Shown: positions 1 to 35,851 of the stretch, in pieces | Position numbering within the stretch: position 1 is the stretch's first letter | Layout: every line of letters begins with the position of its first letter | Origin: Sphingopyxis sp. YF1 | GTDB lineage: Bacteria; Pseudomonadota; Alphaproteobacteria; Sphingomonadales; Sphingomonadaceae | DNA: 64,000 bases | Assembly: GCF_022701295.1 (NCBI RefSeq) | Contig: NZ_CP033204.1 | Span: forward strand, 2,604,001 to 2,668,000 | Direction of reading: 5' to 3' | Position numbers and translations under genes: made by a program | The notes under the pieces: generated by a model | Databases searched by the model: none | Told to the model about the DNA's origin: nothing | The model's input: only the letters and a program-made list of their open reading frames with translations

Positions 1-336
1 CGTCACCAGCCGCAGTTCGGGCAGGTCGACGCTGTACTGGACGAAACCGTTGCCGTCGGCGAAGCCCGGGAACTGCGCGTGGAAATTGGCGCGCAGGTCA
101 TGATTGCCGACGCTAGGCCATACGGGAAAGGGGCAGCGCGAGAAAGCGGTGGCGAGGCGGCGATAGCTGTCGGGATCGCCGCGGTCGGTGATGTCGCCGG
201 TGGCGAGCAGCAGGTCGGGCCGGTTCGGGCCCTCGATCAGCACGTCGAGCACCTCGTCGAGCCGCTTGCGGTTATATTCGGCCGGATTGTCCGGATCGAA
301 CCCGATGTGGATATCGGTGATCTGGGCGATCAGCAT
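1..336 (-). CDS. Metallophosphoesterase, CpdA-like, 3' end beyond window
   Basis: Only the first 112 codons are visible. They begin with an ATG at 336 and carry the calcineurin-like metallophosphoesterase signature: DxH (TDIHIG, near residues 8-10), GD followed by DRG (ATGDITDRG) and GNHD. CpdA-type members hydrolyse 3',5'-cyclic AMP and others act on other phosphodiesters, so cAMP as substrate is inference. The gene lies 43 bp downstream of the FHA-cytochrome gene on the same strand. An upstream enzyme of this operon has two cyclic-nucleotide-binding domains, which makes a cyclic-nucleotide phosphodiesterase role attractive. The C-terminal metal ligands cannot be checked here. Confidence 0.85.
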   Translation of the reverse strand, partial: MLIAQITDIHIGFDPDNPAEYNRKRLDEVLDVLIEGPNRPDLLLATGDITDRGDPDSYRRLATAFSRCPFPVWPSVGNHDLRANFHAQFPGFADGNGFVQYSVDLPELRLVT

Positions 337-379
337 GCGCGTCCCCTGCCTTGGGCCGGTTGGTCCGACCGCCCCTTGT

Positions 380-2314
380 TCATCCGCCCCGTTCCGCCTG
401 GCGCAACACCGGGGCCCGCCACGTCACCTCATAGAGCCCCCGCCCTGTCGAAGCCGTGACCTTGCGCCCAGTCTGCCGCCCTTGCCCCGGCGCGTCTGTG
501 ATTGCGATCACTTTCTTCTTGCGCTGCTGCGGGGGCATCCACGGCTTGCCGTCGTCGCTGTGATATTCGTGGCACATCGCGCACGGCGATTCGGTCGCGG
601 TCTCGACCTTCACCAGCCGCGCGCCGTCCTCGCCGACATGGCAGTCGCGGCACTGGGTGAGGCCGGGAACGAGGAAGTCGGTGGACGCCTTCGACCCTTC
701 GGCCGCGGTGTGGCAGTCGGCGCAGTCGGTCTCGCGGTGCGCGTCATGGTCGAACCAGCCCTTCTCCAGGAAGCGCGGCGTCTGGTTGACCGCCATCACG
801 CGCCAATTGTTACCCGATGCCGGAGCAAAGATGGTGTGACAGTCGTAACAGGCCCCGCCCTTCGAAAAGACCGCGCGCACCGCATCCTCCGCTCGGCCGG
901 GGCGCACCGCAACCTCGCGGAAATAGATGTTGTACACCTGCCCTTCGGCATAGGCGCCCGGCCGCCGCCGCTGCATGCCGCCGAGTTGCAGCGGGCGCGC
1001 CGGCGGGGTCGAACGATAATAGGCGGTGAGGTCGGCGACCACCTGTCCGGGCTCGCCGTGGCGCAGCGTCCGCGTCACCCCGCCCACGGTCTCGAACGCC
1101 AGACTGTGGCACATCGCGCAGTCGCGCTCCATCTCGACCGGCTTCACGCGCACCCCGTCGGCCTCGACGCGGTGACAGTTCTGGCACTCGAGCTGCTTGC
1201 CGAAATCGTAGCGCCCGCGGAAGCTCGCCGCCATGCGCGCGACCCCGCCGGTCGCCTGCAGGTGCAGGTCGTGCGGGAATTTGAGGCCGTTGTAGTCGAC
1301 CAGCCCCTTGGTCATCGGCGTGCGCGCCGGCTTCGCCCCCGGCGCGGCGCGGACAAGCGGGCGGAACTCCGGATGGCCGGTACCGAAATCGGACGCATCG
1401 GCGAGCGCGGTCGGATGCCCCGCAGCCTTCAGCCGCCCCGCCATACCGTCGTGACAGTCGGCGCAGAATTTCTGCGGCGTCGCCGCCATCGGCCCCGCGC
1501 CTTCATGCTCGGTATGGCATTCGACGCAGCGCCCCTGCGGGCGGTTGAATGCCTCGCCGACATTGGCGAGCAATTTGTCGAACCCACCCTTCGGCGCGCG
1601 CGCGGCGAGCAGCATCGCGGTGGGCGCATTGGCGTGCGCCGCACTCATCGCCTTGTGCTCGCCGGTGTGGCAGCCGACGCACGCCGTGTCGGTCACCGCG
1701 ACGAACGGCTCGACGTGGCACGACTGGCAATCGTCCTTCAGGCTCTTGTGCGCGCTCGACAGTGGCCCCGAACTCCAGCTGCTGTCGGCGTGGAACCCCT
1801 GCGGCCGTTCGTCGACGTTGCGATAGCTGTGCCACGCCCAGATCGGCCCGACCAGAAAGGCGAGCAGCATCAGCACCGCAAAGGTCCACGCGCCGACGCG
1901 CTTGCCCGGCATCACCCCCGCCAGCGAGAAGGCCTTGACCTCGTCAACGTCCTTCGACGACTGCGACAGTTCGTCGATGCGTTCGACGAGCAGGATGATC
2001 TGCTCGGCCTCGCGCGCGATCGTCAGCCGGTGCCCGCCGAAACGCAGCTCGGCCCCCGCCGCGCTGTCGATATCGGCGAGTGTTTCCGGCCGCCCGTTGA
2101 TATCGAACCCCAGCCCCTCCAGCGCGGCGATGCGGACATGCCGCCCGTCGGTGCTGCTGATCGTCGCGTGGTGCGGGTTCACCGCCAGGTCGGCGATATG
2201 GATGACATTGCCGCCCTCGCGGCCGAGCGTGATCGTATCGCCGGGCAGCGCCTGGTCGCGGATGATCTGCTTGCCCGTCTTCGTCGTCGAGATCCGGCGC
2301 AGGATGAAGCTCAT
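380..2314 (-). CDS. FHA-domain, membrane-anchored deca-heme cytochrome c
   Basis: A 644-residue protein. Residues about 1-105 look like a forkhead-associated (FHA, phosphothreonine-binding) domain (GREGGNVIHI around residue 31, then PHHATIS). One transmembrane helix follows at about 140-163. The rest is a cytochrome c3-like region with ten CxxCH heme c motifs (CQSCH, CVGCH, CVECH, CADCH, CQNCH, CAMCH, CYDCH, CADCH, CRDCH, CAMCH). The FHA part should be cytoplasmic and the hemes periplasmic. The ATG at 2314 is chosen because a GGGGAGGGG ribosome site precedes it; an in-frame start eight codons upstream is possible. It is 17 bp after the cytochrome b-like gene, so co-transcribed. It probably passes electrons across or out of the membrane, with the FHA domain as a phospho-signal input; that role is inference. 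Confidence 0.88.
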   Translation of the reverse strand: MSFILRRISTTKTGKQIIRDQALPGDTITLGREGGNVIHIADLAVNPHHATISSTDGRHVRIAALEGLGFDINGRPETLADIDSAAGAELRFGGHRLTIAREAEQIILLVERIDELSQSSKDVDEVKAFSLAGVMPGKRVGAWTFAVLMLLAFLVGPIWAWHSYRNVDERPQGFHADSSWSSGPLSSAHKSLKDDCQSCHVEPFVAVTDTACVGCHTGEHKAMSAAHANAPTAMLLAARAPKGGFDKLLANVGEAFNRPQGRCVECHTEHEGAGPMAATPQKFCADCHDGMAGRLKAAGHPTALADASDFGTGHPEFRPLVRAAPGAKPARTPMTKGLVDYNGLKFPHDLHLQATGGVARMAASFRGRYDFGKQLECQNCHRVEADGVRVKPVEMERDCAMCHSLAFETVGGVTRTLRHGEPGQVVADLTAYYRSTPPARPLQLGGMQRRRPGAYAEGQVYNIYFREVAVRPGRAEDAVRAVFSKGGACYDCHTIFAPASGNNWRVMAVNQTPRFLEKGWFDHDAHRETDCADCHTAAEGSKASTDFLVPGLTQCRDCHVGEDGARLVKVETATESPCAMCHEYHSDDGKPWMPPQQRKKKVIAITDAPGQGRQTGRKVTASTGRGLYEVTWRAPVLRQAERGG

Positions 2315-2331
2315 GGGTCCCCTCCCCCGCC

Positions 2332-3225
2332 TTACCAATAGAAAAAGACGCTGATGATGTGCGCCGACAGCGCCGCGATCAGCGCAAAGGTCAGCGGCAC
2401 ATGCACATAGAGCCAGATTTCGAGCAGCGCGCGCAGGCGGAGGTGCTGGCGCAGCCGCGCGAGCGCCGCCTCTTTCTGCGACAACAGCCCGATCACCTTG
2501 TCGCGCGCCTCGATCTCGCTGCTGCGCGACGCGCCGAGCGCGCGCAGCGCGGCAGCCGTCGCGTCATTGGGGTATCGCCCCGACAGACGCGCGCGGATCC
2601 CGCCGGCGAACGGATCCTCGTCGAGGCTGGCGAGCACGGGCGCGGTATCCTGCGGCGTCAGCGGCTGCGCCGCAACGTGGAGCTGGCGGTCGAAGGCACG
2701 GATCGCCTCCAGCATCTGCATTTGCGTCATCTCGTCGCGGTTGTTCGACAGCGCGGCGGGCAGCATCGCATAGACCACCACGCCGTACATCCCCGACAGG
2801 ATGACGAGCATCATCAACGTCCAGGCGAGCGTATGGACGTTCCAGCCGAGCTGGAATCCCGTGTGCCACGTGCCGACGACGATCAGGCTGAGCCCCAGAT
2901 AGACATGCGCCGAGGTCCACGCCTTGAGCGACCAGTAATCGCGCGTCATCTTGCGCTTGCGATACCCCAGCGCGGTGAGCCACAGGATCAGCCCCGCGCC
3001 GAGCGTGCCGAGCGTATAGCCGTACCAGCTGCCGCCATTGTGACGCGGAGTGACGTCGACCAGCATGTAAGAGACGATGATCAGCAGGCACAGCCCGCCC
3101 GAAATCTTCGCCCAACGGAAACCGGCGTAACGCAAAAAGCCCTCGTGGCGCCGCTCGCGCACGCGCTCGACCTGGGTCGCCTTGCTGCGACGCCCCAAAA
3201 ATTTTCGCGAAAACAGACTGGCCAT
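2332..3225 (-). CDS. Membrane cytochrome b-like protein
   Basis: A 297-residue integral membrane protein with helices at about 40-57, 67-86, 105-127, 131-152 and 270-295. A soluble, charged stretch lies between the last two. Histidines placed in or near helices (His107, His121, His131 and a pair in the last helix) fit b-heme ligation, as in small cytochrome b and ferric-reductase-like subunits. Its ATG overlaps the stop of the upstream oxidoreductase by one base (TGATG), indicating translational coupling. It most likely links the cytoplasmic FAD/ferredoxin enzyme to the deca-heme cytochrome encoded just downstream. The fold class is inferred from topology; I recognise no named family. Confidence 0.8.
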   Translation of the reverse strand: MASLFSRKFLGRRSKATQVERVRERRHEGFLRYAGFRWAKISGGLCLLIIVSYMLVDVTPRHNGGSWYGYTLGTLGAGLILWLTALGYRKRKMTRDYWSLKAWTSAHVYLGLSLIVVGTWHTGFQLGWNVHTLAWTLMMLVILSGMYGVVVYAMLPAALSNNRDEMTQMQMLEAIRAFDRQLHVAAQPLTPQDTAPVLASLDEDPFAGGIRARLSGRYPNDATAAALRALGASRSSEIEARDKVIGLLSQKEAALARLRQHLRLRALLEIWLYVHVPLTFALIAALSAHIISVFFYW

Positions 3226-5672
3226 CAGCCGGCGTCCTCCTCGAGCCGCGCGATCGACAGGAACTCCTCGGGCGACACGCGGATCGCGGCGCCGGTCGGG
3301 CACGCACGCACGCACGCCGGGCCGCCGGCGATACCCTTGCACATGTCGCATTTGACCGCGATCTTCTTGGGTTTCTCTTCGCCCAGCTGCTTCTTGGTCC
3401 ATTTGGGCGACGGTTCGCCCGGCCCCGGACCAAAGCCGGTGAGCAGCCAGCGCAGCAGGCTCGGCTTGGGCGGCGGCGCCGCTTCCATGCGGATCACGCC
3501 ATAGGGGCAGTTGCGCATGCAGTTGCCGCAGCCGATGCAGCCCGGCTCCATGAACACTTCGCCGTCGGGGCCGCGATGGATCACGTTCGGCGGGCAATCG
3601 GCCATGCAGTGCGGATGCTCGCAGTGGCGGCAGCTCGTCGGGACATGCAGGTGCGCAAAGGTCTTGCCCGCCTCGCGATCGAGCCGCGACAGGCCCTCGT
3701 GGCTGTCGGCGCACGCCTTTTCGCAATTGTCGCAGCCGACGCACAGATTCTCGTCGATCAGCAGCGCGTCGGTCGCCTCGCCCAACCCTTCCTTCATGAT
3801 GAAGCTGGCGGTGTCCGAATAAAGATCGACCGCGCTCGAATAGCTGGCCTTGCGCGATTCGATGAAGTTGTTCATCTGCGCGCGTTCGGCGACCGCCGCC
3901 TCGGTCGCCTCGCGGACCTGCGGCCGTTTGGCCAGCATCTTGCGGAAGCTGTCGCCGGTCAGCTTGATCAGTTCGGCCCCGACCGCCGCCTTCACCGTGG
4001 CGTTGCGCGGCGCCCCGCTGAGCACGCCCATTTCGCCGAAAAAACTGCCCGCAGGCAGATATCGCAGGAAGATCGGCTTGCCGCCGATATCCTTCTCGAC
4101 CACCATCGACCCCGACCGGATGACATAGACGTCGTCGCCCTGCTCGCCCTCGGTTAGCACGACTTTGCCCGCGGGTACGCGTTCGACCTCGGCGGTGTCG
4201 ACGACGGGGCCCAGATCCTCGACGGTCAGCCCACCCTTGAAGATCTGGAGCAGCTGGCGTTCGAGCGAAATGCGGTTGATCACGCGCTTGGCGCCCGGCA
4301 CCGCCGCCATCAGCTTGAGCGCCGCGGTGCGCGACACCTCGACGAAGATGCTGTCCTCACCCGCGCGGATCGTCGCGCCGCGCTTGCGGCCCGAAATCAG
4401 CCCGACCTCGCCAAAGATCGACCCTTCCTCGATCGGCACGGTGAAATCGGGACCGACCTCGACCAGCGCATGACCGTCGGCGATCGCGAACAACGACGAT
4501 CCCGGTTCGCCCTTTTCGAAAACGACGTCGTCCTTGCGGTAAAAGGCGACCTTCGAATCGAGCATGAATTCGCGCATCTGGAGCGGCGACACGTCGGCGA
4601 AGATGCGCACCCGCGACCGCAGATATTCCAGCCACTCGCTGACCGTCTTTTTCTCCGGCAGGTCGGCGAAGATCGCCGCCAGATCCTTCTCGTCGGCGGG
4701 GGTCAGGGCGGTGTTGCCGTTGATGAACTCGACGACGTCATAACCCTGATTCATGCAATGCTTGATCAGCGGATAACCCGCGAGCGCGCCGATCACGAAG
4801 ATGCCGGGAACCGTCGATTCGAACGTCGGCGACAGTTTCGGAAAGGCTTCGCGGTCGGGACCGGTAAACTCGATCCCCATCGATTCGACGAAGCCGCGCG
4901 GCGCGACCGATCCCAGTCGCGCGACGATCACGTCGCACTGGATCCGCTCGTCGCCGGTCGGGGTCTCCAGCGTCAGCCAGCCGGGTTCGACCAGCTTCGG
5001 CTGGGTCTCGGTGCGGATCGACATGAAACCATTCTCGCCCGCCTCCATCATGTCGGAGACATTCTTGGCCTTGGCGCGCGCGAAATCCTTTGAGCGATTG
5101 AGGATGGTGACGGTGTTTTCGAGCGCTTCCTCGGCGACCCCGAGCGCGTTTTCGATCCCCGCGTCGCCCGATCCGACGACGGTGATATGCTTGTCCTTGA
5201 AATCCTCGGGGTCGTCGACCGTGTAGATGATGTGCGGCAGGTCGGCGCCGCCGCAGCGCATCCGGTTCGGATTGCCCTGCGTGCCGATCGCGAGGACGAT
5301 ATTTTCGGCCCTGTAGACGTCGCCCCTGGCGGTCTTGATCTCGAACGCGCCCTGCTGCCCGGTCACTTCGGTGACCTCGGCATGCTTGACGACGTTGACC
5401 TTGTTGTTCGCCGCATCCTCGTCCCAGTTGGCGAGGATATATTCGCGCGCGCCCTCGGCGAAACGGCAGTCGGAACGCAGGTCGAGCCGATCGGGCGTCG
5501 CGAGCACACGCTTGCCCTTCTGATATTTGAAGATGGTGTCGGAGAGATGGTCGGTCTTTTCGAGCAGGACGTGGCTCATGCCGAGCTGTCCCGCGCGCGA
5601 CGCCGCGCTCAGCCCCGCGGGACCCGAGCCGATGATCGCGACCCGGACGATATCGGGAGCCGGCTCGCTCAT
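3225..5672 (-). CDS. FAD/NAD(P) oxidoreductase fused to two cNMP-binding domains and a 4x[4Fe-4S] ferredoxin
   Basis: An 815-residue multidomain protein. Residues 1-330 are a thioredoxin-reductase-like flavoprotein with an FAD motif (GSGPAG, 15-20) and an NAD(P) motif (GSGDAG, 167-172), but no active-site CxxC is seen. Residues about 350-600 hold two cyclic-nucleotide-binding domains. Both keep the phosphate-binding cassette: FGE at 420-422 with R431, and FGE at 545-547 with R556. Residues about 640-800 carry sixteen cysteines in four groups (644-654, 681-693, 712-722, 775-791), enough for four [4Fe-4S] clusters as in DmsB-like subunits. It probably moves electrons from NAD(P)H to the membrane cytochrome under cyclic-nucleotide control. 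Its ATG sits in an ATGA overlap with a short leader frame. Confidence 0.9.
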   Translation of the reverse strand: MSEPAPDIVRVAIIGSGPAGLSAASRAGQLGMSHVLLEKTDHLSDTIFKYQKGKRVLATPDRLDLRSDCRFAEGAREYILANWDEDAANNKVNVVKHAEVTEVTGQQGAFEIKTARGDVYRAENIVLAIGTQGNPNRMRCGGADLPHIIYTVDDPEDFKDKHITVVGSGDAGIENALGVAEEALENTVTILNRSKDFARAKAKNVSDMMEAGENGFMSIRTETQPKLVEPGWLTLETPTGDERIQCDVIVARLGSVAPRGFVESMGIEFTGPDREAFPKLSPTFESTVPGIFVIGALAGYPLIKHCMNQGYDVVEFINGNTALTPADEKDLAAIFADLPEKKTVSEWLEYLRSRVRIFADVSPLQMREFMLDSKVAFYRKDDVVFEKGEPGSSLFAIADGHALVEVGPDFTVPIEEGSIFGEVGLISGRKRGATIRAGEDSIFVEVSRTAALKLMAAVPGAKRVINRISLERQLLQIFKGGLTVEDLGPVVDTAEVERVPAGKVVLTEGEQGDDVYVIRSGSMVVEKDIGGKPIFLRYLPAGSFFGEMGVLSGAPRNATVKAAVGAELIKLTGDSFRKMLAKRPQVREATEAAVAERAQMNNFIESRKASYSSAVDLYSDTASFIMKEGLGEATDALLIDENLCVGCDNCEKACADSHEGLSRLDREAGKTFAHLHVPTSCRHCEHPHCMADCPPNVIHRGPDGEVFMEPGCIGCGNCMRNCPYGVIRMEAAPPPKPSLLRWLLTGFGPGPGEPSPKWTKKQLGEEKPKKIAVKCDMCKGIAGGPACVRACPTGAAIRVSPEEFLSIARLEEDAG

Positions 5673-5743
5673 GCGCGCGCGCCCTCACGGCGGGCGACGC
5701 GAGCGAATCCGGCCATGACGTTGACGAACCTGCGCACGGGCAT
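5669..5743 (-). CDS. 24-residue leader peptide upstream of the redox operon
   Basis: A short frame reads MPVRRFVNVMAGFARVARRE... and ends in a TGA that overlaps the ATG of the 815-residue oxidoreductase (ATGA). A purine-rich AGGGGGACAGGG precedes its ATG and looks at least as good as the ribosome site of the downstream gene. The peptide is basic and amphipathic, with four Arg in the second half. It could be a coupled leader that sets translation of the large gene, or the N-terminal remnant of a membrane-targeting peptide. No family is recognised and expression is unproven. Confidence 0.45.
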   Translation of the reverse strand: MPVRRFVNVMAGFARVARREGARA

Positions 5744-5817
5744 CCCTGTCCCCCTATCGCCAGCCCCCCGGCGAACACAAAACGGATGCGACCCGGACTT
5801 ATGTCCTGGAACGAAAG

Positions 5818-5846
5818 CTATGCCCTTGAAAGCGAGGGCAGGTCAA
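5818..5846 (-). promoter_or_regulatory. Possible sigma70-type promoter of the redox operon
   Basis: On the minus strand TTGACC (5846-5841) and CATAGC (5823-5818) are separated by 17 bases, 75 bp upstream of the leader ATG. The -10 match is poor. No FNR or CRP palindrome was seen next to it. Confidence 0.3.
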
Positions 5847-5905
5847 CAAGCGAGGCAGAGATTCGCCTTGCTGCGATACGTTCGCAACAGAGCGGTTGTC
5901 GCCCG

Positions 5906-6295
5906 TCAGGGTGCGGGCCGGACCTGGTTGTCGACGCCCTGTACCGCGATGCGCGGCTTGCCCTTTCCGTTCACGCGCCATGTCACGACATTGTCGACGC
6001 CCGAGACGCTGAGCGGCGCGCCGGGACGCAGGACGATGGCGATCCGGTTGTCGACTCCGTTGACCGTCAGCGCGGGACAGTCACCGGTGAAACTGATGCG
6101 GTTGCCCGTCCCCGACACTTCGGCGGGGCGTCCTTCACAATCGACCTCGTGCATCTGGTCGACGCCGTTGATCGTCGAGCCGTTGCGGGTTCCCGCACCT
6201 TCGCTCCGCTGCATTGCCAGCGAGGGCGAAGCGGCGAGCAGGCTGAACAGGGCGGCCGGGAACAGCATCCGGATGGCGGTACGGTTTCGAAACAA
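5906..6295 (-). CDS. DUF3060 secreted repeat protein
   Basis: A 129-residue protein with a Sec signal peptide (MLFPAALFSLLAASPSLA region). Three or four short repeats of the pattern 'V.GVDN.(I/V)' follow, which is the DUF3060 signature and suggests a small beta-helical fold in the periplasm or on the surface. The chosen start is a TTG at 6295 because AAGGAG stands six bases before it. The ATG at 6268 has no ribosome site and would trim the basic N-region of the signal peptide. Function is unknown for the family. It stands alone between the redox operon and bpt. Confidence 0.75.
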   Translation of the reverse strand: MFRNRTAIRMLFPAALFSLLAASPSLAMQRSEGAGTRNGSTINGVDQMHEVDCEGRPAEVSGTGNRISFTGDCPALTVNGVDNRIAIVLRPGAPLSVSGVDNVVTWRVNGKGKPRIAVQGVDNQVRPAP

Positions 6296-6373
6296 GGCGG
6301 TCTCCTTCGTTTCCCGCCTCTTATTCCCCTGTCCGTTCAATGATATGGAAATCGCCCCGCGTCAACGGCGCGT

Positions 6374-7150
6374 TCAGGCCAGCTCGAACTGGGCCGCGAT
6401 CGCGTCCGACGCGATCGGCTCGAAGCGCGACCAGCCGTCGGGACCCAGTCGTTCGAGCGGACGGAAGCGCGCCTTGTACGCCATGCGCGCCGAATTCTCG
6501 ATCCAGTAGCCGAGATAGACATAGGGCAGCCCGGCCCTCGATGCGCGCGCGACATGGTCGAGGATGATATACGTCCCCAACCCCTCGCGCATCGGGTGCG
6601 CTGCGTCGAAGAAGCTGTAGATCATCGACAGTCCGTCGCCCTGCCGGTCGGTCAGGCAGCAGCCGATCAGCCGGCCGCGACTGCCGTCGGCCGCCGGCGG
6701 CTCGCGATATTCGATCAGATAGCTATCGACCGGGGTCTGCTCGACCATGTCGGCGAAATCCTGCTCGTCCATGTCGGCCATGCCGCCATCGGGATGGCGC
6801 GCGCCCAGATAGGCGCGCAGCAGCGCGTACTGCTCCTCTGTCGCCCAGGGCTTGCACGCGGTGGCGACCAGGTCGCCGTTGCGACGCAGGTTGCGCTTCT
6901 GCGAATTGCTCGGCGCAAAATCGGCCGCGGCGACGCGCACCGACACGCATGCCGAACAGTCGGCGCAGCTCGGGCGGTAGGCGACCGACTGGCTGCGGCG
7001 AAAGCCGATGCGTCCCAGCGCATCGTTGAGTTCGCCCGCGCTGTGGCCGTTGAGCTCGGTGAACACCTTGCGCTCGGTCTTGCCCGCCAGATAGGGGCAT
7101 GGCGCGGGGCTGGTGACGAAAAAGCGCGGAAAACGGAACGGGGCGGACAC
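6374..7150 (-). CDS. bpt: Aspartate/glutamate leucyltransferase (Bpt/ATE family)
   Basis: A 258-residue member of the bacterial arginyl/leucyl-tRNA protein transferase family, which adds Leu (or Arg) from tRNA to N-terminal Asp or Glu and feeds substrates to the N-end-rule ClpS/ClpAP pathway. Family features include the N-terminal 'PCPYL...ERKVFTEL' block, the cysteine-rich '[16 protein letters not shown]' segment and the C-terminal '[22 protein letters not shown]' region that holds the acyl-transfer core. The GTG at 7150 is chosen because CGGAGG precedes it and the length then matches the family. The gene is monocistronic on the minus strand. Confidence 0.95.
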
Positions 7151-7333
7151 GCGAATTTGACCTCCGGACTGTGATGCGGATCCCCCCGATGCGGGTCCGA
7201 CGCGCCATCTGCACCGACTATGCCGCCGCACGTCAATGGTGCAAAGGAGATTTACCATTTTTGCGCGTCCCGAACTGAATCAAGTTCGCAACTTCCTGAA
7301 TCGACCGCTAACTTTTGTGCCGATTTGAATCGC

Positions 7334-8788
7334 TCAGGCGTAACCCTTGAGCTCGTCGCCGGTCAGCGTCGCGACGTGGAGCACGTTGGTCGACCCCGGC
7401 GTGCCGAACGGAACCCCCGCCATCATCACCAGCTTCGCACCCGCGCGCCCGATCCCATGGCGCAGCGCCATGCGCTTGCCCTTGGCGATCATCTCCTCGA
7501 AACTGCCGATGTCCTTGGTCGGCACCGCATGCGCGCCCCAGAGCAGCCCCATGCGCCGCGCCGCCTCCTTCCTGGGCGTCAGCACCAGCAGCGGCGCGCC
7601 CGGCCGCTCGCGCGCGACGCGGCGCGCGGTCGATCCCGACGCGGTGAAACAGATGATCGCGTCGGCCGCGATCGTCCCGATGATGCTCCCCGCCGCCTCG
7701 GCGAGCGCGTCGGCGGTCGTCGCGTCGGGCACCGTCTCGGTGAAGTGCAGCCGGCGGTAATAGTCGGGATCGCTTTCGACCGATCGCGCGATGCTGTCCA
7801 TCATCGTCACCGCCTCGACCGGCCAGGCGCCCGCCGCGGTCTCGGCCGACAGCATGATCGCGTCGGCGCCGTCATAGACCGCGGTCGCGACGTCGGACAC
7901 TTCGGCGCGCGTCGGCGAGGGCGAGACGATCATCGATTCGAGCATCTGCGTCGCGACGACCACCGGCTTGCCCATCCGCCGCGCGGTCGCGACGATCCGC
8001 TTCTGGAGCGGCGGCACCGCTTCGGGCGGCAATTCGACCCCCAGGTCGCCGCGCGCGACCATCGCCGCGTCGGCGAGCTCGAGGATCTCCTCGAGCCGCT
8101 GCACCCCCGCGGGCTTCTCGAATTTGACGAGCAGCGCCGCCTTGCCGCCGATCAACCGCCGCGCCTCGGCGACATCCTCGGGGCGCTGGACGAACGACAG
8201 CGCGATCCAGTCGACATGCTGTTCGAGCGCAAAGGTCAGGTCGCGGCGGTCCTTTTCGGTCAGCGCCGCAAGCGGCACCACGACATCGGGAACGTTGACC
8301 CCCTTGCGGTCCGAAATCCTGCCGCCGACCTCGACCACCGTCTCGATCCGCCCGGGCGAAACCGCCTGCACGCGCAGCACCAGCTTGCCGTCGTCGATCA
8401 GCAGCCGCGTGCCGGCTTCGAGCGCCGCGAACAGCTCGGGATGCGGCAGATGGACGCGCGTCGCATCGCCGGGCGCCGGGTCGGCGTCGAGAACAAAGCC
8501 CGCGCCCTTGACCAGTTCGGCGGGCCCGTCGCGGAACGCCCCGACACGCAGCTTCGGCCCCTGCAGGTCGACGAGGATCGTCGTCGGCCGCCCGGTTTCC
8601 TTCTCGAGCGCGCGGATCGCCGCGATCACCTTCGCATGGCCTTCATGATCGCCATGGCTCATGTTGACGCGAAAGGCGTCGGCGCCCGCGCGATGCAGTT
8701 CGGCGATCATCGCGGGATTGGCGCTGGCGGGGCCCAGCGTCGCGAGGATACGGACCTTGCGCTGGCGGGGGGTAAAACTCTGGACCAC
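7334..8788 (-). CDS. pyk: Pyruvate kinase
   Basis: A 484-residue pyruvate kinase, which transfers phosphate from phosphoenolpyruvate to ADP in the last glycolytic step. Visible motifs are 'KVRILATLGPAS' at the N-terminus, 'RVNMSHGDHEGH', the catalytic Lys in 'LLVKFEKPAG', the Mg-binding 'VARGDLGVELP' and the C-terminal allosteric domain with 'TASGSTARRVARERP'. The GTG at 8788 is chosen because CGGAG lies five bases upstream and the resulting length matches the family; longer in-frame extensions are low complexity. The gene is single and divergent from the DUF1244 gene. Confidence 0.97.
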   Translation of the reverse strand: MVQSFTPRQRKVRILATLGPASANPAMIAELHRAGADAFRVNMSHGDHEGHAKVIAAIRALEKETGRPTTILVDLQGPKLRVGAFRDGPAELVKGAGFVLDADPAPGDATRVHLPHPELFAALEAGTRLLIDDGKLVLRVQAVSPGRIETVVEVGGRISDRKGVNVPDVVVPLAALTEKDRRDLTFALEQHVDWIALSFVQRPEDVAEARRLIGGKAALLVKFEKPAGVQRLEEILELADAAMVARGDLGVELPPEAVPPLQKRIVATARRMGKPVVVATQMLESMIVSPSPTRAEVSDVATAVYDGADAIMLSAETAAGAWPVEAVTMMDSIARSVESDPDYYRRLHFTETVPDATTADALAEAAGSIIGTIAADAIICFTASGSTARRVARERPGAPLLVLTPRKEAARRMGLLWGAHAVPTKDIGSFEEMIAKGKRMALRHGIGRAGAKLVMMAGVPFGTPGSTNVLHVATLTGDELKGYA

Positions 8789-8904
8789 GAAAGCTCCGGT
8801 CGAAATGGGGGTGAATGTCGGCGGCTTGCCTAGGCGCGTTGCGATGGGCAAGGCAAGCTGCGTATAGCTATTCACGCCCTCCCCGCGACCGATGGAGCCC
8901 GACC

Positions 8905-9234
8905 ATGTCCTGCAGCGAAGACGCCCCGCCCGCCAACGACGCGCTCGACACACTCGACGATGCCGCCGCCGCGGCGGCGTTCCGCCGCCTCGTCCGCCTC
9001 CTCCGCCACCGCAGCGACGCCGCGAACATCGACCTGATGGGGCTCGCGGGTTTCTGCCGCAACTGCCTCGGCGACTGGATCGCCGAGGCCGGCGGGCTCG
9101 ACAAGGAGGCCGGCCGCGCGATCGTCCACGGCATGCCGACCACCGCGTGGAAGGCGCTCCACCACACCCCCGCGACCCCCGAACAGCTCGCGCGGATGGA
9201 AGAAAGCATGGCGAAGAATCCCCGACCTCGCTAG
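8905..9234 (+). CDS. DUF1244 family protein
   Basis: A 109-residue soluble protein. The core 'FRRLVRLLRHRSDAANIDLMGLAGFCRNCLGDWIAEA' and 'IVHGMPTTAWKALH' are the conserved DUF1244 blocks, with the invariant 'FCRNC' cysteines. The family is common in Alphaproteobacteria and its biochemical role is unknown. The ATG at 8905 follows GGAG with an eight-base gap; an upstream in-frame extension would overlap the pyk promoter region. It is probably co-transcribed with the GapR-like gene 54 bp downstream. Confidence 0.85.
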   Translation: MSCSEDAPPANDALDTLDDAAAAAAFRRLVRLLRHRSDAANIDLMGLAGFCRNCLGDWIAEAGGLDKEAGRAIVHGMPTTAWKALHHTPATPEQLARMEESMAKNPRPR

Positions 9235-9288
9235 GGACGCGCCAGGCGCGATTCTCGCGCAGCCATCATCCATCCAGCGGAGTCCCAA

Positions 9289-9531
9289 ATGAGCGAAGCC
9301 ACCACAGCCGACCAGCAATTGCGCCTGTTCATCGAGCGCATCGAGCGGATGGAAGAAGAAAAAAAGGGCGTCGGCGAGGATATCCGCGACACCTATAACG
9401 AAGCCAAGGCCCAGGGCTATGACACCAAAATCATGCGGCAGGTGATCAAGCTGCGGAAGATGTCCCAACACGACCGGATGGAAATGGAAGCCATTCTGGA
9501 CACATATAAGGCGGCCCTCGGCCTCGCTTGA
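9289..9531 (+). CDS. gapR: GapR-like chromosome-structuring protein (DUF2312)
   Basis: An 80-residue DUF2312 protein. The sequence is a long charged helix with coiled-coil character ('[33 protein letters not shown]...VIKLRKMS') and the family's '[13 protein letters not shown]' end. In Caulobacter the family member GapR is a DNA-clamping protein that binds overtwisted AT-rich DNA and is needed for replication and transcription. The same role here is inferred from family membership. GGAG precedes the ATG. It converges with the HEPN-like gene, with only three bases between the two stops. Confidence 0.85.
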
Positions 9532-9534
9532 GGA

Positions 9535-10212
9535 TTATGGGTTTGTTTCCCAGTAGAGTTTGAGCATGTCCCCATCGCCTGCCTTCAGAAGCTCCAGGAT
9601 GGCCGTCACACTGGCCACATGGCTTCGGAAGGCAGCGTTGGATTTTTCCATGACGGAAACGATCGCCTCACTGAACCAGTGAAATGCCAGCAACGCCCGA
9701 CGAATGTCGTCTTCGGAAATTTCGAGATCCTCATTTTGCTTGGGGTGGGTGATCCGGTTTCTCAGGGCGATCGTGCCTTTGAGGTCGGCCCATCCCGCAC
9801 CACCGAAATCGGGGGTCGCGTCGGGAGCGAATTTTGCCGCTATGCGGCTCGTCAACCGGATCGAGGCTGCCGTGGACAGGAATCGCGGCTGCTTCGATAT
9901 GCGGCCGGTGTCATCGACCGTAACCATCGATTCTGAAAGCGCGATTCTTTCGGCCTCTTCGAGGACACCGATTTCGTCGGCAGCCTCGACCACGTGCCTG
10001 CGATAAATCCATGCCTGCCCTTCGACGGCTGCAATAAGCGTGCGGATCAGGCCTCTTCGGTTGGTCGAACTGTCATCCGCCTTTTGGCGTCGCAACGCGT
10101 CATCGACATCGAGTATCAGCACGCGAATAAAGCTTGGGCGTACATCGTTGATTTCCGTCACGTCCCGCCCCATTTGTTGCGACCAACCGCATGCCAAGCG
10201 ATCACCTTTCAT
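9535..10212 (-). CDS. HEPN-like hypothetical protein
   Basis: A protein of about 225 residues without a named family that I recognise. Its C-terminal half has '[16 protein letters not shown]' (Arg151-x4-His156), which matches the R-x4-6-H motif of HEPN ribonucleases, followed by an all-helical tail. Base and codon use is visibly less GC-rich than in neighbours, suggesting acquisition. The start is uncertain: ATG 10212 leaves only 31 bp to the divergent gene and ATG 10173 leaves 70 bp; neither has a good ribosome site. It stands between two housekeeping genes without a visible antitoxin partner. Confidence 0.65.
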
Positions 10213-10243
10213 ATCCAAAACCCCGGCAGGAGGGAATCTCCCT

Positions 10244-10561
10244 ATGTTCAGCACCACCACCAACGCCGTCGAGGGCCGTCCGGTCCGCGAATATCTGGGC
10301 ATCGTCACCGGCGAGGTGATCGTCGGCGCCAACCTGTTCCGCGACCTGTTCGCCAGCATCACCGACATCGTCGGCGGCCGCTCGGGCAAATATGAGGATG
10401 TCCTCGCCCGCGCCCGCAAGGAAGCGATCGCCGAGATGGAAGCCGAAGCCGCGCGGCTCGGCGGCAACGCCGTGATCGGCGTCGACCTCGATTACGAAGT
10501 GCTCGGCCAGAACGGCTCGATGCTGATGGTGTCGGCCAGCGGGACGGCGGTCGTCCTCTGA
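10244..10561 (+). CDS. YbjQ/UPF0145 heavy-metal-binding-like protein
   Basis: A 105-residue UPF0145 (YbjQ) family protein. The blocks '[37 protein letters not shown]', '[30 protein letters not shown]' and '[11 protein letters not shown]' are typical. The fold is a pentameric dodecin-like assembly and the function is unresolved; a metal-related role is only by name. AGGAGGG about ten bases before the ATG supports the start. The gene stands alone upstream of yebC. Confidence 0.88.
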
Positions 10562-10665
10562 CGACGCCGGTCCTTCGCCGCGCTCTACCGCACCGGCTCC
10601 GGTTGTGCGCGGCCCTTCGCCGCGCTAGGGCGGCGTCACAATTTTCCATCGGATGGAGGTAGGCT

Positions 10666-11412
10666 GTGGCCGGCCATAGCAAATTCAAGAACATCATGCA
10701 CCGCAAGGGTGCGCAGGATAAAAAGCGCAGCAGCCTCTTCTCGAAGCTCAGCCGCGAAATCACCGTCGCGGCGAAGATGGGGCTGCCCGATCCCGACGCC
10801 AACGCCCGCCTGCGCGCCGCGGTCAACGCCGCCAAGGCGCAGTCGATGCCCAAGGACAATATCCAGCGCGCGATCGACAAGGCGGCGGGCAACGACGGCG
10901 ACAATTACGAGGAAATCCGGTACGAAGGCTATGGCCCGGGCGGCGTGTCGCTGATCGTCGAAGCGCTGACCGACAACCGCAACCGCACCGCGACCAACGT
11001 CCGCACCGCGTTCAGCAAGAATGGCGGCAACCTCGGCACCTCGGGCAGCGTCAGCCACGGCTTCGACCGCCTCGGCCTGATCAACTATAGCGCCGGGGCC
11101 GGCGACGCCGACGCCGTGTTCGAGGCCGCGCTCGACGCGGGCGCCGACGACGTCGAATCGTCCGACGACGGCCACGACATCTGGACCAGCGTCGACAGCC
11201 TGCACGAAGTCGCGAAGGCGCTCGAAGCCAAGCTCGGCGAGGCGGAGGGCGTCAAACTCGCGTGGCGGCCGACGCTCAAGAGCGAAATCGCCGACGAAAG
11301 CATCGCGCAGACGCTCTTCAAGCTGATCGACACGCTCGACGACGACGACGACGTCCAGACCGTGTGGGGCAATTACGAAATCCCCGACGCGGTGATGGAA
11401 AAGCTGGGTTGA
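10666..11412 (+). CDS. yebC: YebC/PmpR family transcriptional/translation factor
   Basis: A 248-residue YebC family protein beginning '[21 protein letters not shown]', the invariant N-terminus of the family, and continuing with '[24 protein letters not shown]' and '[16 protein letters not shown]'. Members have been described as transcription regulators and, more recently, as factors helping ribosomes through difficult sequences. The start is a GTG at 10666 with GGAGGT six bases before it. Location upstream of ruvC-ruvA-ruvB is widely conserved. Confidence 0.97.
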
Positions 11413-11417
11413 TGAAA

Positions 11418-11547
11418 ATCCTCCCTGTCGCAATGCGATGGGGAGGGGGACCGCCGGCGAAGCCGGTGGTGGAGGGGTCAATGTGTCATGGCCCCTCCGT
11501 CAGCGCTTCGCGCTGCCACCTCCCCATGCCTGCGGCACAGGGAGGAT
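11418..11547 (+). repeat. Palindromic repeat element, copy 1 (11-bp terminal inverted repeats)
   Basis: A 130-bp GC-rich element fills the yebC-ruvC gap. It is bounded by perfect inverted ends ATCCTCCCTGT (11418-11428) and ACAGGGAGGAT (11537-11547), with internal smaller hairpins (GCCGGCGAAGCCGG, GCGCTTCGCGC). A second, diverged copy lies inverted at about 30970-31098. The right end contributes the GGGAGGA ribosome site of ruvC. It resembles non-autonomous REP/MITE-like intergenic repeats. Confidence 0.75.
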
Positions 11548-11554
11548 CAAAATT

Positions 11555-12028
11555 ATGATCATCCTCGGCCTCGATCCCTCGTTGAGCTGCACCGGCTGGG
11601 GCGTGATCCGCGTCGAAGGCAGCCGGATCAGCCATATCGCCAACGGCCAGATCAAGACCGACGCCAAAGCCTCCCTGCCCGACCGGCTCGCCTATCTCGA
11701 CACCGTGCTCGCCGCGGTGATCGCCGACCATGCGCCGGTGTCGGCCGCGGTCGAGGAGGTCTTCGTCAACGACAATCCGCAATCGACGCTCAAGCTCGCG
11801 CACGCGCGCGGCGTCGTCCTGCTCGGCTGCGCCCGCGGCGGGCTCGCGGTCGGCGAATATGCGCCGCGCGTCGTCAAGAAGGCGATCGTCGGCACCGGCG
11901 GCGCGGCGAAGGAACAGGTGCAGGCGATGCTGCGCATCCTCCTGCCCGGCGCGAAGGTTGCGGGCGCCGATGCCGCGGACGCGCTGGCCGTCGCGATCTG
12001 CCACGCCCACCACCGGCCGTTGCGATAG
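11555..12028 (+). CDS. ruvC: Holliday junction resolvase RuvC
   Basis: A 157-residue RuvC endonuclease, which cuts Holliday junctions symmetrically during recombinational repair with RuvAB. Acidic active-site residues are visible in '[18 protein letters not shown]' (first Asp), 'AAVEEVF' (Glu) and the C-terminal '[17 protein letters not shown]' (last Asp and His). The ATG at 11555 follows GGGAGGA, which belongs to the flanking repeat element. It is separated from ruvA by a second repeat element. Confidence 0.97.
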
Positions 12029-33883: not shown

Positions 33884-35446
33884 TCAGACCGGGATCGCGT
33901 TGCAGGCGCCGCTCGACGAACCGAAGCTCGCGGTCGCGCTGTTGCAGGTCCAGCCCTGGAAGCGGGTGTCGCTCGCGTCGCGGACCGCGCCGATATAGGT
34001 CGGGACCGCGAAGAAGCTGCTGATGCTCGTCGGGTTGAACACCGCGCGGCCGGTCTCGCTCGCACCGTTGACATAGACGCCCGTCAGCGACGGCGTGAAG
34101 GTCGAGCTGTTGTTGGTGCCGGCGTTGAAGATCGCCGCGACCGCGTCGTTGGTCACGCCGCCCGAGCCGGTGAAGGGCCCCGTGCCGCCGCACTGCATCA
34201 CGACCGAGTCGAACTTCGGCGGCCCCGCCTCGTCGGCGCCCGTGGTCTGCACCGTCGTCGCCGAGTTGAGGCGGAGGCACGACACGCCCGGCGAGACGAA
34301 GATGCCGTTCATCAGGCGATAGTCGGCGCCGCCGCGGATCAGCACCGCCGCGGCATTGCCCGCGCCGTTGGCGCGCTGGACGAAGGTGAAGTTCGAGATC
34401 GCGACATTCTGGCGCGGAACCGCGTCCTCGTTGCCGTTCGAATCGGCCTCGATGATCGAATCGCCGACGCCGCCGCCGGCGCGCTGGACCGCGAGCAGAT
34501 ACTGGATGTTGCCCTTGTAGCCGACGTCGGTGTCGAGGCTGTCATCCTCGGCGCCGGTGATCGCGATGTTGCGCATGTTGACGCGGCCGCCGAACACTTC
34601 GATGCCGTCGTCCGAGCTGTTGTGGACGTGGATATTCTCGATCGTGGTGCCCGAACCGGTGCCCGACGGGGTCAGCCCCTGCAGTTCCTTGTCGGCGCTG
34701 AGGACAAAGCCCGAATAGCGGATCTGGACGTAGGACATGCGGCCCGAATTGTCGGCCGGCTGCGCGCCGCCGTAGAGCGCGTTCGACGTGCCCTCGGTAT
34801 CGCGTTCGCACGCCACGGTGCCCGGCGTCGCGGCGGGCGCGAGGCAGTCGGTGACCGGCGCGCGGCCGAGCAGGACGACCCCGCCCCACATCTGCGACGC
34901 ATTGTCGTCGGGGGTGGCGACGACGTTGCCGCGACCGGTGAAGACGATCGGCTGGGTCGGGGTGCCGACCGCGTCGATGCGGTTACCGCGGTTGACGACG
35001 AGGTAGGAGACGCCCGTCGCGCCGAAGATGGTAACGCCCGGATCGATCGTCAGCGTGACGTCGGTGTTGGTGCTCGCCGCACCCTGGTCGGTGCCGACGT
35101 CGACGCGGCCGGGAAGCGAGTAGATGACACCCGCGACCTTGGGGATCGCGGTCGAGGCCGTGAAGCGCGCGGGGAAGCCACAATTGCGCCACGTGCCCTG
35201 CGGGCCGCTGATCGTGCCAAGATCAGTGAGCTGGACCGCGCCGGTGATCGACGGGCAGTTGGCGGCGGGGGTGACGCCGGTCGGGGTCGGCGTGGGGGTC
35301 GGCGTGGGGGTCGGGGTCGGGGTCGGCGTCGGAATCACGATGACGCCCTCGCCCGGCGAGGCGACGCCATCGGCACCGCACGCCGCGAGAATGGAACAGG
35401 CCACGCCGCTGAGCATGACCAAACGAACGCGCGCGAAAGCCGCCAT
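33884..35446 (-). CDS. elpS: ElpS-like extracellular lipoprotein
   Basis: A 520-residue lipoprotein. The signal peptide ends in lipobox 'ILAAC' (Cys23); a linker of nine Pro-Thr repeats follows at about residues 38-56, then a beta-helix-like body ('GVTIFGATGVSYLVVNRGNRIDAVGT', 'GRMSYVQIRYSGFVLSADKELQGLTPSG', 'SDDGIEVFGGRVNMRNIAITGAEDDSLDTD'). Caulobacter ElpS is a lipoprotein of this kind, induced by phosphate starvation, secreted by the T2SS and encoded beside it. The gene name is by analogy of context and architecture. GGAGAA precedes the ATG at 35446. A heptamer array lies upstream. Confidence 0.75.
   Translation of the reverse strand: MAAFARVRLVMLSGVACSILAACGADGVASPGEGVIVIPTPTPTPTPTPTPTPTPTGVTPAANCPSITGAVQLTDLGTISGPQGTWRNCGFPARFTASTAIPKVAGVIYSLPGRVDVGTDQGAASTNTDVTLTIDPGVTIFGATGVSYLVVNRGNRIDAVGTPTQPIVFTGRGNVVATPDDNASQMWGGVVLLGRAPVTDCLAPAATPGTVACERDTEGTSNALYGGAQPADNSGRMSYVQIRYSGFVLSADKELQGLTPSGTGSGTTIENIHVHNSSDDGIEVFGGRVNMRNIAITGAEDDSLDTDVGYKGNIQYLLAVQRAGGGVGDSIIEADSNGNEDAVPRQNVAISNFTFVQRANGAGNAAAVLIRGGADYRLMNGIFVSPGVSCLRLNSATTVQTTGADEAGPPKFDSVVMQCGGTGPFTGSGGVTNDAVAAIFNAGTNNSSTFTPSLTGVYVNGASETGRAVFNPTSISSFFAVPTYIGAVRDASDTRFQGWTCNSATASFGSSSGACNAIPV
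35280..35332 (-). repeat. Hexanucleotide tandem repeat encoding the Pro-Thr linker
   Basis: Tandem CC(C/G)AC(C/G)-type units encode nine consecutive Pro-Thr pairs just after the lipidated cysteine region. The near-identical units make length variation by slippage plausible, which would change the tether length but keep the frame. Confidence 0.7.
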
Positions 35447-35764: not shown

Positions 35765-35851
35765 GCGGTCGTGGCGGAACTGGTAGACGCGCAACGTTGA
35801 GGTCGTTGTGGCCGAAAGGCCGTGGAAGTTCGAGTCTTCTCGACCGCACCA
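35765..35851 (+). tRNA. tRNA-Leu (anticodon GAG)
   Basis: An 87-base cloverleaf with acceptor GCGGTCG pairing with CGACCGC. The anticodon stem is CAACG/CGTTG with loop TTGAGGT (anticodon GAG). A long class II variable arm (TGGCCGAAAGGCCG) and T arm with TTCGAGT are present, and CCA is encoded. The variable arm identifies it as tRNA-Leu. Confidence 0.95.

Follow-up and report, generated by a model that had tools for sequence, protein, structure and literature searches.

The window analyzed here is a stretch of 64,000 nucleotides from the genome of Sphingopyxis sp. YF1 (4.37 Mb, one contig), corresponding to positions 2,604,001 to 2,668,000 of contig NZ_CP033204.1. At its beginning, four consecutive genes on the minus strand encode a flavoprotein, a cytochrome b, an FHA-decaheme cytochrome c and a phosphodiesterase. 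The positions of these open reading frames (ORFs) given in an earlier note on this DNA, all on the minus strand, were verified, and the gene content described there for this operon was confirmed by ORFs and domain profiles. The operon comprises the following features, in which cNMP stands for cyclic nucleoside monophosphate and TM for transmembrane:

3225..5672, minus strand: FAD/NAD(P) protein with two cNMP domains and a 16-Cys ferredoxin module, 815 amino acids (ORF and domain profiles)
4713..5672, minus strand: FAD/NAD(P) two-Rossmann module, about amino acids 1-320, without CXXC (profiles, alignment)
4371..4415, minus strand: phosphate-binding cassette of cNMP domain 1, amino acids 420-434 (E422, R431; both in 105/105 sequences)
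3996..4040, minus strand: phosphate-binding cassette of cNMP domain 2, amino acids 545-559 (E547 in 104/105, R556 in 105/105)
3255..3764, minus strand: 16-Cys ferredoxin module, HycB/HydN/DmsB-like, amino acids 637-806 (all 16 Cys in 105/105)
2332..3225, minus strand: cytochrome b, probably diheme, 297 amino acids (ORF, motifs)
380..2314, minus strand (ATG 2314, stop 380): FHA-TM-decaheme cytochrome c, 644 amino acids (ORF, profiles)
2012..2257, minus strand: FHA domain, cytoplasmic by predicted topology, with a non-canonical phosphothreonine site (profiles of relatives)
1823..1906, minus strand: hydrophobic (putative TM) segment between the FHA and heme domains (hydropathy scan)
569..1729, minus strand: ten CXXCH heme motifs and a conserved extra His (motif, alignment)
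1..336, minus strand: calcineurin-like phosphodiesterase, N-terminal 112 of 282 amino acids in the window; the gene ends at window position -512 (ORF)

The ATG of the cytochrome b gene overlaps the stop codon of the flavoprotein gene (TGATG), which is the sole overlapping pair in the operon. Intergenic gaps of 17 nt and 43 nt precede the FHA-decaheme gene and the phosphodiesterase gene, respectively, so that the overlapping gene order claimed previously is right as to order and, as to overlap, for the first pair only. A gene for a DUF3060 protein (window 5906-6340) immediately precedes the operon and has the same orientation. A search of window positions 1-12000 against Rfam gave no match.

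The gene order was compared in 80 named loci with flanks of at most 8 kb and some truncations by contig ends. As the best 80 of 585 confirmed loci, they are biased to sphingomonads. Beside the flavoprotein gene, the cytochrome b gene was found in 78, the FHA-decaheme gene in 76 and the phosphodiesterase gene in 70 of these loci, in the same order where present. A further 24 loci (L124-L147) comprise two from the family, 16 from the class and six from elsewhere in the phylum, two of the latter from genome G060. There, the cytochrome b and the FHA cytochrome are each encoded next to the flavoprotein in 21 of 24 cases, and neither adjoins it in L125, L135 and L143. A phosphodiesterase gene follows the triad only in the two family loci, and in L128 a weaker match lies at a distance of about 10 kb. 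The association of the first three genes extends across the phylum, and the phosphodiesterase gene is seen beside them only within the family. The co-occurrence in other genomes on which the earlier note had made its reading depend was found in both sets of loci.

For the 815-aa flavoprotein, profile matches to Pyr_redox, to PF00027 in two stretches and to Fer4 domains were obtained, as well as a match to PF13247 (E 7.8e-10). In an alignment of 105 flavoproteins, in which the sequences of the 24 further loci are 43-64% identical to the window protein, all 16 ferredoxin cysteines, the first GxGxxG and the second GxGxxG/A are conserved. The Glu and Arg of both cNMP cassettes, residues that bind the phosphate in such cassettes, are kept in 104-105 of the 105 sequences (a single Glu of domain 2 is lost in one sequence), from 95% down to about 43% identity, so that the two cassettes described earlier as intact-looking stand. 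An arginine that closes the second NAD(P) strand (R193) is present in 103 of 105 sequences and presumably hints at NADPH as the cofactor. Before the ferredoxin module, cysteines occur only at positions 69, 140, 246 and 306, and the flavin part contains no CXXC. Strictly speaking, it is therefore no thioredoxin reductase, and that label, assigned previously, was rejected. In L133, flavoprotein and cytochrome b form one natural chain of 1118 amino acids (frame -14 to 3342, with the flavoprotein match as reference), which points to a direct contact of both subunits. L135 (genome G060) holds a second flavoprotein copy without cytochrome b or multiheme genes nearby; about 4 kb from it, a cyclase relative is encoded.

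The cytochrome b carries two WX3HX13H motifs (W103/H107/H121 and W271/H275/H289) and an SGXXG motif at position 144. Both WX3HX13H motifs are found in 98 and SGXXG in 95 of 100 relatives. Of 101 rows, 100 show H107, H121, H131, H275 and H289 and one has a gap; this count, like those of the FHA-cytochrome residues below, includes stop-bearing rows and some partial proteins. Since two H-x13-H pairs are enough for two b hemes, the protein is probably a diheme cytochrome. The window protein stays below the cut-off of PF01292 (cytochrome b561), which 27 of 34 relatives match at E up to 0.01, and a simple hydropathy scan, which is no dedicated TM predictor, revealed three separate hydrophobic stretches. 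Alignment A1 comprises 34 of 36 rows (L073 and L079 left out) and alignment A3 32 of 36 (L030, L033, L053 and L072 left out); L030, L033, L053 and L079 have one or more stops inside the chosen gene boundaries.

The 644-aa protein contains ten CXXCH motifs and one hydrophobic segment between the FHA domain and the hemes. For the window protein itself, MU2_FHA was the only FHA profile matched, below cut-off, and the domain was assigned because relatives match PF00498 (27 of 32 members at E up to 0.01). Among FHA domains of known structure, those of OdhI and GarA are the nearest by profile; these two proteins bind dehydrogenases that carry no phosphothreonine. The Gly-Arg of the phosphopeptide site is kept in 98 of 98 FHA cytochromes, the position of the phosphothreonine-contacting Ser is occupied by Ser in only six of these 98, and the GSxNGT loop is lost. 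A phosphothreonine input of the usual form is therefore unlikely; the canonical input was rejected, and with it the phosphothreonine signal proposed earlier. The FHA domain may be a phospho-independent docking module. Weak, partial matches to MtrC/MtrF domains also occur among the FHA cytochromes, the window protein remaining below cut-off.

Against curated models, the phosphodiesterase scores 80.8 for CpdA (cut-off 225) and 141.7 for SpdA (cut-off 400), i.e., higher for the enzyme acting on 2',3'-cyclic nucleotides and below the cut-off for both. The name CpdA was rejected for this reason. From the earlier claim of a CpdA-like protein removing cyclic AMP (cAMP), the phosphodiesterase gene in the operon remains; the CpdA identity does not, and a role as remover of 3',5'-cAMP appears doubtful.

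A second locus, missed by the earlier note, lies at C1:4238902-4248676 of the host genome, 1.6 Mb from the operon, and is found near the triad in many relatives. It encodes:

C554-like tetraheme protein, 478 amino acids
HbpS-like protein with a lipobox-like N-terminus, 671 amino acids
candidate outer-membrane barrel with a C-terminal Phe, 659 amino acids
decaheme-LVIVD protein with ten CXXCH motifs and LVIVD repeats, 1443 amino acids

Near the triad in the 24 further loci, a double HbpS-like protein is encoded in 13, a barrel-like protein in 14, a second large decaheme protein in 12 and a small protein in eight. The HbpS-like gene adjoins the barrel candidate in all ten examined loci holding both. 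Some relatives of the 659-aa protein are named 'alginate export domain-containing' in UniRef, and among 120 listed relatives the C-terminal residue is Tyr in 119 and Phe in one; outer-membrane barrels often end in such an aromatic residue. The large decaheme protein gives partial matches to ExtM/N/O, and the name ExtM was rejected at a score of 68.2 versus a cut-off of 800. The HbpS-like protein (L157:10346-12358) is a tandem with a lipobox-like start and a proline-rich linker.

The distribution of both modules was determined in samples of 149 family, 397 phylum and 192 class genomes, in which the identity of genomes across searches was taken from agreeing size and printed rows and the negatives are only partly listed. 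In the family sample, the flavoprotein and the large decaheme protein are found in the same 54 of 149 genomes. Their genes are at most 15 kb apart in 23 of these and 15-60 kb apart in four; in 12, they share a contig at a greater distance, and in 15 they lie on separate contigs. As the loci are often unlinked, their joint retention is independent of linkage. In the phylum sample, all 13 decaheme-positive genomes are among the 17 flavoprotein-positive ones, and the same numbers were obtained for the class sample. Since the sampled genomes share ancestry, the Fisher values for this co-occurrence overstate independence. In six genera with differing members (g25 and g27 in the phylum sample, g421, g422 and g452 in the family sample, and g26) both proteins are present or absent jointly, where the g26 comparison sets G205 of the phylum sample against G740 of the family sample, and the negatives of g422 and g452 were taken from their absence in listings. 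One of these negatives, G734 (g452), has cyclases without the conduit.

A third component co-occurs with the two modules. The host genome encodes two class III cyclases, one of which has a CHASE2 domain and lies 20 kb from the operon; the catalytic motifs resemble those of an adenylate cyclase. In the family sample, a class III cyclase is present in 54 of 54 flavoprotein-positive and in 10 of 95 other genomes. Among the 54 positive genomes, 40 encode it no more than 35 kb from the large decaheme gene and 26 no more than 35 kb from the flavoprotein gene; 42 do so for at least one of the two. For the decaheme gene, about 2.4 genomes would be expected by chance, a value that assumes evenly spread cyclases and a 35-kb limit chosen after the positions had been seen. 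In five loci picked for their cyclase proximity (G653, G676, G735, G641 and G355), the genes for the cyclase, a protein of about 250 amino acids, the C554-like protein, the HbpS-like protein, the barrel and the decaheme protein lie on one strand. For the protein of about 250 amino acids behind the cyclase, no Pfam match was found. Between the CHASE2 cyclase and the operon of the host genome, a gene for a ShlB-type transporter and one for a 3277-aa FhaB-like protein are located (L153:4582-16336, window about -15418 to -3664).

The invariant cNMP sites together with the co-occurrence of the cyclase make a role of cAMP likely. The cAMP input proposed in the earlier note gains indirect support from a co-occurring and often neighboring cyclase; the gating itself may be an allosteric action on the flavoprotein.

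The earlier reading of an electron-transfer operon that crosses the membrane is supported. With moderate confidence, we interpret the system as a variant, linked to cAMP, of an electron conduit across the cell envelope that resembles PCC4, a putative conduit described by He et al. (2017; PMC5566968); the operon would constitute the inner-membrane half of a two-locus system. Cytoplasmic NAD(P)H would give electrons to FAD and, further on, to four Fe-S clusters, from which the membrane protein would receive them at its two b hemes and convey them across the membrane to the periplasmic part of the FHA cytochrome with its ten c hemes. There, the putative outer-membrane module of the second locus (C554-like tetraheme protein, HbpS-like lipoprotein, candidate barrel and 1443-aa decaheme-LVIVD cytochrome) would take over and lead to the presumed substrate. 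cAMP made by the linked CHASE2 cyclase would bind the two cNMP domains and alter electron entry allosterically, and the FHA domain would act as a cytoplasmic docking module that needs no phosphothreonine, possibly within a complex of the subunits. More tentatively, and below even confidence, the conduit may be switched post-translationally throughout the aerobic sphingomonads, the CHASE2 cyclase sensing an extracytoplasmic signal, cAMP binding to the twin cNMP domains and the phosphodiesterase of the operon resetting the system.

Several observations weigh against this interpretation. The 659-aa barrel candidate has no Pfam or PDB match, and its amphipathic-strand count gives a weak signal only (z 1.6 versus -1.0, 0.6 and -0.9 in three controls). 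Four flavoprotein-positive genomes in the phylum sample and four in the class sample lack the large decaheme protein. The distribution of the FHA cytochrome is patchy, with 33 of 60 near genomes, all 33 of the same genus, and 0 of 24 same-order genomes from other families. In 12 of the 54 genomes, no cyclase is located inside 35 kb of either locus, and L135 is the sole one of the 24 further loci whose flanks hold a cyclase relative; the cyclase link is therefore documented for the family alone. The CHASE2 cyclase of the host genome is followed by the protein of about 250 amino acids and by ShlB-/FhaB-type secretion genes, so that the cyclases near the loci could serve neighboring secretion genes or another cNMP protein. 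Finally, inward electron flow to the quinone pool is hypothesized for PCC4 in the main text of PMC5566968.

The cyclase observations lead to a rather unlikely alternative, in which the conduit is real, the cNMP domains have a structural role or a different ligand, and the cyclase acts via another cNMP protein or the secretion genes. The gene order behind the host cyclase fits it, as does a 236-aa frame of CRP-like size in the host genome that is related to the second cNMP domain. The cassette Glu and Arg retained over the whole identity range speak against it, as do the presence of a cyclase with the conduit in all 54 genomes and a query with the FhaB-like protein, which matched in four of 11 fetched cyclase-bearing stretches of relatives and gave nothing in the other seven.

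The same conduit might also run inward: an extracellular donor would then feed the outer decaheme protein, the periplasmic hemes and, in turn, cytochrome b, with either quinone or (through the Fe-S clusters and FAD) NAD(P)+ as the final acceptor. This reading, judged unlikely, draws on the PCC4 hypothesis, since the inner-membrane protein of PCC4 shares the motifs found here. The conserved flavin/NAD(P) module encoded directly upstream is, however, a natural entry point for NAD(P)H, and reducing NAD(P)+ by inward flow would cost energy if the donor had a high potential.

A purely periplasmic supply of reductant, e.g., for a reductase or for cytochrome c maturation, without an outer-membrane step, is regarded as improbable. 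It agrees with the operon itself having no porin gene, with NrfE/CcmF beside the operon in L073 and with relatives of an NrfG-like TPR protein (42 bits, cut-off 306) near the operon in 52 of 80 loci, a search that may take in other TPR proteins. Haem lyases are, however, expected wherever many c hemes are made, and such genes near the operon in many relatives fit the heavy c-heme demand; moreover, this supply would leave unaccounted for the exact co-occurrence with the second locus and the candidate barrel, which ends in Tyr or Phe in 120 of 120 listed relatives. A chance neighborhood of unrelated redox and signaling genes can be dismissed, as the order is conserved over many genera and several classes and the often unlinked modules are jointly present or absent.

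If the cAMP-linked conduit is correct, its own cyclic-nucleotide receptors would provide a direct allosteric switch between signaling and electron export. To our knowledge, cAMP control of bacterial electron conduits is known only at the level of transcription, and aerobic sphingomonads are not known for extracellular electron transfer; the conduit would suggest that they exchange electrons with the outside. The interpretation would also provide a testable function for genes that are widespread (found in 54 of the 149 family genomes sampled).

Elsewhere in the window, ARAGORN predicts a tRNA-SeC (34112-34201), which sits inside an open frame of 541 amino acids, and a tRNA-Leu (35765-35851). 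Rfam gathering scores support neither prediction, and both are probably false.

Compared with known systems, the cNMP domains share the phosphate-cassette Glu and Arg with CRP, PKA and PKG, and the top PDB matches include the latter two; unlike in these proteins, the domains here are fused into a redox protein. The FHA domain resembles OdhI and GarA in its fold by profile, whereas here it is fused to a TM segment and hemes and has lost SRxH and GSxNGT. The matches listed in the open-licence literature include no study of either the fused flavoprotein or the FHA-decaheme protein, and the consulted passages of PMC8258643 and PMC10654088 added nothing on the present system.

As far as described in PMC5566968, MtrCAB, PioAB and MtoAB combine a decaheme cytochrome, a barrel and an inner-membrane redox protein, and a decaheme cytochrome, a candidate barrel and an inner-membrane redox protein are also encoded here. 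Unlike in MtrCAB-type systems, entry would proceed by flavin/Fe-S and cytochrome b and not by CymA, for which no gene search was made in the genome. In the Geobacter extHIJKLMNOPQS cluster, as described in the sections consulted of PMC5877670, a porin gene lies among multiheme cytochrome genes; the second locus resembles it in its candidate barrel gene amid multiheme genes and in the partial ExtM/N/O matches, with scores far below the curated cut-offs.

The closest likeness is to PCC4, which, in the main text of PMC5566968, comprises a porin, 4-, 5- and 10-heme cytochromes and an inner-membrane protein of about 300 amino acids with two WX3HX13H motifs, one SGXXG and five TM helices. In its Subgroup II, a PF13247 Fe-S gene is located directly upstream of the gene for the inner-membrane protein. 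The window cytochrome b has the same two WX3HX13H motifs and SGXXG, which the earlier note had missed, the PF13247 domain is part of the 815-aa protein encoded adjacently upstream, and a 10-heme cytochrome is encoded in the operon. In L131, L145 and L146, 4-, 5- and 10-heme cytochromes and a porin candidate of about 540 amino acids (by position and terminal Phe only) surround the triad. The trio of 4-, 5- and 10-heme cytochromes differs from PCC4 in the host genome, where the operon encodes a 10-heme cytochrome only and the second locus 4- and 10-heme ones; pentaheme queries matched in 0 of 80 named loci (flanks of at most 8 kb) and in three of 24 further loci. The operon also contains no porin gene, and the candidate barrel is encoded 1.6 Mb away and is unlike the porin candidates of L131 and L146. 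BLAST comparisons of the pentaheme proteins and porin candidates of L131, L145 and L146 with the host C554-like and barrel proteins gave no significant match. The terms FHA, cNMP and 'sphingo' are absent from the main text of PMC5566968, whose supplementary domain-architecture figure may show such domains. From PCC4 as described there, the sphingomonad system is set apart by its HbpS-like and LVIVD-decaheme partners, by the phosphodiesterase gene within the operon and by a linked cyclase. Given the shared inner-membrane motifs and the clusters of L131, L145 and L146, the inner-membrane module is PCC4-like; as the outer-membrane module differs and two PCC4 features are lacking, the system is classified as a PCC4-related variant rather than a member.

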